Shown here piece after piece: positions 31,055-33,895 of a DNA stretch of 33,895 nucleotides (position 1 is its first letter; every line of letters begins with the position of its first letter). This DNA is from Coleofasciculaceae cyanobacterium (GTDB lineage Bacteria; Cyanobacteriota; Cyanobacteriia; Cyanobacteriales; Xenococcaceae): positions 1 to 33,895 of the forward strand of contig DATNPK010000107.1 in assembly GCA_036703275.1 (NCBI GenBank). Reading direction: 5' to 3'. The position numbers and the translations under genes are program-made. The notes beneath the pieces were generated by a model, which was given only the letters and a program-made list of their open reading frames with translations, did not search any database and had not been told where the DNA came from.

Positions 31055-33327
<2,273 letters not shown>

Positions 33328-33340
33328 CTTGTGTCGTTTT

Positions 33341-33400
33341 ACTCATAAGTTTAAATATTTACGCATAAGTTTAAATATTTTACTTATAAGCTTAAATGTT
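33341..33400 (+). repeat. Three tandem 20-bp repeats (putative TnsB-binding sites)
   Basis: Units are ACTCATAAGTTTAAATATTT (33341-33360), ACGCATAAGTTTAAATATTT (33361-33380) and, after one extra T, the diverged ACTTATAAGCTTAAATGTT (33382-33400). The first two differ at one position. The period of 20-21 bp fits closely spaced transposase-binding sites as at Tn7 right ends. They could also be iterons or operator sites. Confidence 0.8.
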
Positions 33401-33411
33401 AGGTAGAATCT

Positions 33412-33487
33412 AGGGTATCTCACGGAGATCATAAACGCATGAACTTGTTTCGGGCAAAAGACCTCTAACAATTATAAGAGATACCCT
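33412..33487. repeat. 10-bp inverted repeat in the tnsA leader
   Basis: AGGGTATCTC (33412-33421) and GAGATACCCT (33478-33487) are perfect complements 56 bases apart, directly upstream of the tnsA start. The loop contains a nine-codon frame (MNLFRAKDL from an ATG at 33440) with GGAG 11 bases before it. It may be an mRNA leader structure or an operator controlling transposase expression. Confidence 0.6.
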
Positions 33488-33493
33488 TATCTT

Positions 33494-33895
33494 ATGACTG
33501 TTTCTAAAAAGCTACGCAGCAATCGCGGATACAAGCAAACCGTTGGCAATTTCAGTAGTTACAAAATGAAGACGAGTGTTTGGTATGATTGTGCACTCAA
33601 AAGAGATTTTATGTACTAGCTGGAATTCGATCCAGATGTTGCCTCTTATACAACGCCAGCAACTTTATTCGATCATTACGAGTTAGGTAAACTCAAACAA
33701 TACGTTCCTGACTTCCAAGTTATTCGTCGTCAGAAAAAACAAATTATCGATGTTAAATCTCAAAAAACACTCTTTAGCGATCGCTATAAGCTACTGCACC
33801 AGTAATTATCAAATATTTGTTATGGTAGCGAATGGACATTTGTCGCTTTAAGCGAGTCACAAGTGCGACAAGAACCAATCTTTTCAAATATCAAG
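33494..33895 (+). pseudogene. tnsA: TnsA-like Tn7 transposase endonuclease, broken by two stops (partial)
   Basis: From ATG 33494 one frame stays recognisable to the window edge (134 codons) with stops only at 33617-33619 (TAG, codon 42) and 33803-33805 (TAA, codon 104). The translated parts read MTVSKKLRSNRGYKQTVGNF and KMKTSVWYDCALKRDF, then after the TAG LEFDPDVASYTTPATLF, QYVPDFQVIRRQKKQIIDVK and DRYKLLHQ, then after the TAA SNICYGSEWTFVALSESQV. This is the TnsA N-terminal catalytic domain. In TnsA a Glu normally sits in the LERD segment, and here it is Lys (ALKRD); the Asp of VPDF is kept, and the E/Q-x-K motif is DVK. TnsA cuts the 5' ends of the element during cut-and-paste transposition. 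Two nonsense changes plus loss of the Glu indicate an inactive copy. Confidence 0.85.

Follow-up and report, generated by a model that had tools for sequence, protein, structure and literature searches.

A type I-B CRISPR-associated Tn7-like transposon of cyanobacteria with the 3' end of gyrB as its very probable attachment site

Tn7 sits with its tnsA-side end beside the 3' end of an essential gene, glmS, reading away from it; the element has short repeats in its ends and inserts about 25 nt past glmS. Among CRISPR-associated transposons (CASTs), I-B1 elements have separate TnsA and TnsB proteins, the type I-F Cascade has a fused Cas8/5, and parE, one of the described docking genes, is a paralogue of gyrB. 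The accessible part of one review lists five CAST types and presents I-B1 as a close relative of Tn7 (PMC11406308). As described in that part, cyanobacterial I-B1 CASTs (AvCAST, Tn7743) combine TniQ and TnsD with a type I-B Cascade and home to glmS through TnsD or to comM through a crRNA; I-B2 CASTs (PmcCAST, Tn7744), with a fused TnsA-TnsB, use tRNA sites; and Tn7017 (EasCAST, I-F3) carries two TniQ-family proteins and occupies a TniQ/TnsD-targeted parE site (PMC11406308). Attachment sites named in the papers searched include glmS, tRNA, parE, comM and others.

The window analysed here is a stretch of 33895 bp that makes up the entire contig C107 of a genome (G000; 5.62 Mb in 116 contigs) that is cyanobacterial by its relatives and gene content. 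We put at roughly 85% the probability that the window closes with the tnsA side of a type I-B CRISPR-associated Tn7-like element whose attachment site is the 3' end of gyrB, most likely reached by TnsD homing (Table 1). The first letters of the end, TGTCG, lie 4 nt past the gyrB stop, at stop+5, and are followed by tandem repeats, with CATAAGTTTAAATATTT at the first two sites and a weaker copy at the third. The sequence-only reading of this locus had described tandem repeats ahead of a TnsA-type frame that reads away from gyrB, and both observations held, the frame being 61% identical across 134 codons to the intact 219-aa TnsA behind the gyrB of G157. Two of its details needed correction: it had started the element two bases past the stop, where alignment with 13 other occupied flanks places the start after 4 nt, and it had taken tnsA for an open frame, where codons 42 and 104 are in-frame stops.

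Table 1. Coordinates of gyrB and of the transposon features that follow it in the window
Feature	Position	Strand	Basis or remark
gyrB, attachment gene	31393..33327	+	644-aa ORF; last codons LDI, then TAA; 3' end aligned with 29 other gyrB flanks
CTTG spacer, gyrB stop to element	33328..33331	.	4 nt
tnsA-side transposon end	33332..33400	+	TGTCGTTTTA plus three TnsB-like sites (33344, 33364, 33385)
Hairpin (GGGTATCTC ... GAGATACCC)	33413..33486	+	z -3.0 against shuffles; consensus stem in 8 relatives
tnsA pseudogene, truncated by the contig end	33494..33895	+	ATG 33494; in-frame TAG 33617 and TAA 33803; homology to intact G157 TnsA
Stretch shared by the window and the end of C93	33755..33895	+	Letter-for-letter identity; the CRISPR-side end abuts it in C93; assembly branch point

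Taken alone, the window tnsA stays under the cut-off of the Pfam Tn7_TnsA-like_N model (E 0.023), which the G157 protein clears (3e-6). The gene is broken in G000, G007, G014 and G015 and intact in G157; an idea that fits the broken copies of G000, G007 and G015 is that loss of TnsA made the element replicative and so produced end-to-target junctions. Whole-genome searches with the Pfam TnsA model PF08722 gave no match even in controls and have no bearing on absence. The CTTG spacer and the A preceding it could possibly be half of a 5-bp target duplication. No right-hand match to it was found in G000 or G015, where tnsA sequence follows the C93 right end and AAGGCG the G015 right end; this weighs little, given the tnsA sequence in the right flank of G000 and the apparently rearranged right flank of G015.

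We searched the gyrB 3' end and its flank in 60 genomes and obtained matches in 57, including G000; the G025 match comprises the transposon end only, and the G005 contig stops inside gyrB. Flanks were aligned for 30 genomes, namely 23 of the 27 family genomes (no flank could be read for G005, G017, G021 and G025) along with 7 from elsewhere in the order. An end was present at exactly stop+5 in 13/23 readable family flanks (G000, G001, G004, G007, G008, G010, G012, G013, G014, G015, G016, G020 and G023) and in one of the seven from outside the family (G049), so that the boundary is stop+5 in 14/14 occupied flanks, each with 4 nt of varying sequence ahead of it. The end reads TGTCT in G015 and TGTTG in G023, and TGTCGNTT, which occurs 12 times within the first 200 nt of the 30 flanks, has an offset of 4 in 12/12 occurrences. 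The remaining ten family flanks lack the end (G002, G003, G006, G009, the native copy of G011, G018, G019, G022, G024 and G026). These flanks bear out the earlier proposal that gyrB is the attachment gene of a Tn7-like element: empty sites exist among the relatives, so the sequence behind gyrB is not ordinary flank in all of them, and the constant boundary excludes one unrelated to gyrB.

A degenerate pattern (last gyrB codons, 4 nt, TGTCG) hit 13 places in 12 of 388 genomes of the order, with G157 as a new case, against 0/388 for the reversed control; being stricter than the alignment, the pattern misses G013, G014, G015 and G023. Several relatives keep the end alone, with or without the hairpin. 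In G026 the end is missing, but a 46-residue remnant of TnsD (71% identical) lies some 345 bp past the gyrB stop. On G011 C7 (L063, L059) the native gyrB is empty, and a second gyrB 3' end with a relic lies about 41 kb away; similar DNA continues downstream of this second copy, as in a duplication of the attachment region. By eye, GyrB inteins also appear to occur in the family: gyrB is a 1631-aa frame in G001 (C432, L130), and intein-like sequence is seen in the gyrB of G023 (C257, L135).

Between the transposon end and tnsA lies a hairpin, the arms of which form a 9-bp inverted repeat in the window (33413/33478). A pattern search found an inverted repeat in this interval at 13/14 loci, of which 12 lie at gyrB or belong to a second element and one sits at another place in the G016 genome, with none found in the gyrB flank of G016; the search left out the short relics of G004, G010, G011 and G012, and the right arm is degraded in G013. 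Eight short-loop leaders share 15 predicted pairs, five of them with changes on both sides; four of these five belong to the outer stem, where the 5 pairs fail to form in one to three of the eight leaders, and one to the inner 10 pairs, which are never broken. Fold z-scores of five other leaders range from -2.3 (G015) to -8.8 (G014). A run of at least nine T follows the stem in G014, and runs of six or seven in G001 and G008, so the hairpin is terminator-like in these three genomes and less so in the window, where a simple terminator scan of the leader found no terminator. We infer that the hairpin would act as a guard that stops or damps transcription leaving gyrB toward tnsA, and that in relics it would serve gyrB as a replacement terminator. 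Away from gyrB, G016 C28 carries near 110140 (L142) a hairpin leader and a broken tnsA start, another relic.

In G000 the rest of the element is spread over other contigs. C71 opens inside a tnsA 3' end (L068:2-229), about 30 bp past the end of the window as judged by the G007 homologue, and continues with tnsB (792 aa), tnsC (331), tniQ (299) and tnsD (647), all four assigned by Pfam, and then a beta-lactamase-like cargo gene. C93 (4343 bp) holds cas8b, cas7, cas5 and a CRISPR array in which four 36-nt repeats were found. The array adjoins the right end, where four TnsB-like repeats and the terminus ...TTACA are followed directly by tnsA sequence. The cas8b frame measures 458 aa versus 599 aa in G015; the first 139 bases of C93 are repeated on C36, and bases 11-139 also on C38. 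Read by eye, cas8b was probably interrupted near its start by an insertion sequence, of which the opening bases of C93 would be the end. With two stops in tnsA and a cas8b that seems to be cut by an IS, the G000 copy appears decayed.

The last 141 bp are common to C107 and C93 and the first 141 bp to C71 and C66, the latter continuing with a short scrap and then chromosomal genes. C107 and C93 both enter, and C71 and C66 both leave, one repeated tnsA piece that we estimate at about 310 bp. We favour the layout gyrB-end-tnsA-C71...C93-right end-second tnsA piece-C66, because in G007 one element abuts another; a counterpoint is that this layout would require two tnsA pieces without a single difference along the stretch they share, the second stop among it, and an old remnant would be expected to have diverged. 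A gyrB-tnsA-C66 remnant plus a circle or tandem of C71...C93 fits as well. We also considered C26 as the right flank, as it holds the gene found 3' of the gyrB relic in G012, and rejected it since it is not transposon-adjacent in G000.

In G015, a Xenococcaceae MAG, the element spans 22.6 kb from gyrB to the right end on a single contig of 102537 bp. Directly after tnsA come tnsB and tnsC, then tniQ, tnsD, a BREX cargo (brxA, brxB, brxC, partial pglX and pglZ frames, brxL), cas6, cas8b, cas7, cas5, a five-repeat CRISPR array and the repeats of the right end. PADLOC, run on the ten listed ORFs (at least 70 aa long) that separate tnsD from the array, returned BREX proteins, Cas6b, Cas8b, Cas7b and Cas5b, with no cas3, cas1 or cas2 among these ten. 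The gene content of a type I-B CAST, a Cas8b-type Cascade with Cas5, Cas6 and Cas7, is therefore present inside the G015 element. This copy is damaged, with tnsA split by an insertion and tniQ truncated at its 5' end; the tnsA region (L051) shows a small palindromic element of about 120 bp with inverted ends (AAAATACCAGCC...GGCTGGTATTTT) at the split.

The tnsA, tnsB, tnsC and tniQ/tnsD genes occur together on C71 and in G015, tnsA and tnsB are separate frames on C71 and in G007, G015 and G157, and the element encodes two TniQ-family proteins, a short TniQ and a long TnsD. Inverted, similar repeats of the CATAAG type close the CRISPR side in C93 and G015, so that both ends have repeated TnsB-type sites and TGT...ACA termini, TGTCG at gyrB and ...ACA in C93 and G015. 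The tnsB, tnsC, tniQ/tnsD, cas and CRISPR components that the sequence-only reading proposed to look for beyond the window are thus found, on C71 and C93 in G000 and on one contig in G015. Where that reading had offered either a classical Tn7-like element or a type I CRISPR-associated one, the cas8b-cas7-cas5 genes and CRISPR arrays of C93 and G015 favour the second.

Every copy seen is a relic, carries damage or is interrupted by the end of a contig, and no complete intact one was found. G157, from a third family, has intact tnsA and tnsB behind gyrB and no TnsC match up to the contig end; in G020, tnsA has an altered C-terminus and no tnsB frame behind it; and at the G007 gyrB, tnsA contains a stop and tnsB is cut short. 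Near 4052478 on G007 C1 (L169), a CRISPR-repeat relic is present and right-end repeats are fused to the hairpin and the beginning of tnsA from a second element; this tandem arrangement is located about 60 kb away from gyrB, in opposite orientation and beside an IS-like copy, apparently through an inversion between two IS copies. CRISPR-repeat relics adjoin right-end relics in both G007 and G025. In G025, these lie near 10697 on C97 (L141), by genes that also flank the G015 element; the assembly is incomplete, and gyrB itself was not found in it. By eye, G001 C199 (L129/L164) carries a TnsD fragment, a transposase-like frame and cargo resembling dnd-type DNA phosphorothioation genes. Across 386 genomes of the phylum, TnsC was matched at E 1e-20 or better in two, G000 and G070, so few elements of this kind are represented in that set. 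A TnsD scan of genome contigs confirmed one relative, JASJCP010000007.1 (Xenococcaceae cyanobacterium MO_167.B27), apparently the contig of G015, and a scan of viral contigs confirmed none.

The 647-aa TnsD, with a TniQ core and a long C-terminal part bearing helix-turn-helix matches, would recognise the last coding part of gyrB and bring in TnsC and TnsA/TnsB, so that insertion would fall 4 nt past the stop with the tnsA end nearest gyrB and gyrB left intact. RNA-guided moves elsewhere would fall to the second, short TniQ and the cas6-cas8b-cas7-cas5 complex, next to which no cas3 lies. Position, ends, gene content, the hairpin and the lack of a detected gyrB match among the spacers are observed; TnsD targeting of gyrB and Cascade-guided transposition we infer. 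The fixed position and the long TnsD with its helix-turn-helix match suggest protein-guided homing, as for Tn7 at glmS. G000, G015 and G001 form a close TnsD group (75-77% identical), and each has a gyrB-adjacent end, with both on one contig only in G015. TnsD matches were obtained in 14/388 genomes, the 11 besides these three being more distant or shorter; an AlphaFold model of TnsD (mean pLDDT 39.9) was too poor for use. Plasmid relatives of TnsD, 22-24% identical over 82-97% of its length, were seen in Niallia (L175), Pseudomonas putida (L176) and Azospirillum (H104), the first two near tnsA-tnsB-tnsC.

Three other explanations of the locus deserve weighing. The least probable of them, in our estimate, is that a homing CRISPR spacer rather than TnsD selects gyrB, as in type V-K and most I-F3 elements. 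The CRISPR array does lie beside the right end, with a degenerate last repeat in C93, and one G000 spacer matches its own genome exactly (C89:99870-99904, L122, with ATG in front), at what we read as the 3' end of a flavodiiron protein-like gene; against this, no transposon end was seen by eye in the 215-250 bases either side of that match, and a separate TnsD with a long C-terminal part exists. Furthermore, neither the G000 array against its own genome (E up to 10) nor the G015 array against six genomes (E up to 1) gave a gyrB match, thresholds that a short or mismatched gyrB spacer could escape, and this result makes TnsD the likely selector. The C89 match and an 89% match of one G015 spacer to G015 C218 may be guides for the second pathway, and we regard them as leads only.

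That the element is a plain Tn7-like transposon without CRISPR, the cas module of C93 being unrelated cargo or part of another element, is highly improbable. No cas gene is listed for the four plasmids with related TnsB proteins, for which the PLSDB gene tables are incomplete, yet in G015 the cas genes and array sit between tnsD and the right end with no cas3, cas1 or cas2 among the ten ORFs scanned, CRISPR-repeat relics lie by the right-end relics of G007 and G025, and two TniQ-family proteins are present. We consider it unlikely, if less so, that what lies beside gyrB is an old end passed on vertically and retained as a terminator for gyrB, and that the intact-looking tns and cas contigs derive from an element elsewhere; in G000 this would read C107-X-C66 plus a circle or tandem X-C71...C93-X. 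The 141-bp contig overlaps permit such an arrangement, and the relatives that retain the end alone agree with it, but the G015 element runs end to end at gyrB on one contig, the ends differ among genomes as do the 4 nt before them, and TnsB of G007 is closer to that of G015 (87.1%) than to that of the same-genus G000 (84.5%). Homing of a type I-B CRISPR-associated element to gyrB thus remains our preferred reading.

We compared the transposition proteins with PDB entries. TnsC gave 9e-43 with TnsC of I-F3 Tn6677, 6e-17 with a second entry that we take to be I-F3 PseCAST, 3e-8 with type V-K ShTnsC, 0.009 with Tn7 and 0.09 with 8fcu/8ff4, presumably I-B2 PmcCAST TnsC; in the same order, TnsB gave 6e-70, 1e-67, 2e-29, 3e-16 (Tn7) and 6e-10, the last presumably I-B2 likewise. 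TnsB and TnsC are far nearer I-F3 than Tn7, a hint that a I-B Cascade was captured a further time. Judged by E-values rather than a tree, and against a set that does not include AvCAST, the gyrB element looks like a separate pairing of a I-B Cascade with an I-F3-like transposase. Four cyanobacterial plasmid relatives have TnsB proteins 38-41% identical; two carry the annotation tnsA-tnsB-tnsC-tniQ, matches to TnsC and TniQ were obtained in a third, and the fourth, from Calothrix, gave no TnsC match. Plasmid matches beside mercury genes (L162, L174), one of them labelled Tn7 TnsB, were read as Tn5053-type and rejected as Tn7. The Pfam Tn7 TnsC domain PF11426 matched none of 388 genomes, controls included, and has no bearing on absence.

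Set beside the described systems, the gyrB element resembles Tn7017 in its two TniQ-family proteins, in homing beside a type II topoisomerase B-subunit gene and in having its best TnsB and TnsC scores against I-F3 entries; it differs in its type I-B Cascade (Cas8b, Cas5b, Cas6b), its cyanobacterial host and its site, gyrB, Tn7017 being compared by description and not by sequence. The type I-F Cascade of I-F3 elements is absent, Cas8b and a separate Cas5b being present instead. With I-B1 CASTs it shares TniQ plus TnsD, the type I-B Cascade, separate TnsA and TnsB and cyanobacterial hosts, but the site is gyrB, and in place of Tn7-close transposition proteins it has those scored above, in a comparison to which AvCAST proteins did not belong. 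I-B2 CASTs likewise share the type I-B Cascade, TniQ plus TnsD and cyanobacterial hosts, whereas the fused TnsAB of I-B2 and I-D elements is absent from the gyrB element, which has separate proteins, and tRNA sites give way to gyrB. Like Tn7 at attTn7, it has short repeats in its ends and places the tnsA-side end next to an essential gene's 3' end, pointing away from it; it differs from Tn7 in inserting 4 nt past the stop, in carrying a Cascade and in its distant TnsC. Tentatively, and at somewhat less than even odds, we propose a sixth kind of CAST, in which a cyanobacterial, I-F3-related Tn7-like lineage independently captured a I-B Cascade and homes to gyrB via its own TnsD; its end hairpin would replace the displaced gyrB terminator, so that relics of end and hairpin would persist after the element dies and the site would be re-invaded in tandem.

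The survey by Hsieh and Peters (NAR, 2022), the one most likely to hold a gyrB site, lies outside the literature covered here; among the literature matches listed for Tn7-like, TnsD, TniQ, I-B CAST, parE and TnsA, none gives gyrB as an attachment site. The accessible part of PMC11406308 makes no mention of gyrB, PMC8649781 none of gyrase or gyrB, and the main text of PMC10293859 none of gyrase, parE or topoisomerase; in the accessible parts of PMC12452197 and PMC11915867, gyrB figures as a phylogeny marker and in an unrelated context, respectively. In the literature searched, gyrB therefore looks like a docking site that is apparently unnamed. CASTs are under development as DNA-insertion tools, and each new TnsD offers a further natural safe site. 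Since gyrB is essential and nearly universal, and its C-terminal residues are well conserved across the flanks compared, a TnsD able to recognise the end of this gene may function in other bacteria as well. If a I-B Cascade was indeed captured by an I-F3-type transposase, the element would be a further test case for the re-pairing of Cascade and TniQ. Because so many relics share a single fixed base, one can count directly how often a CAST is acquired and lost at its home site.
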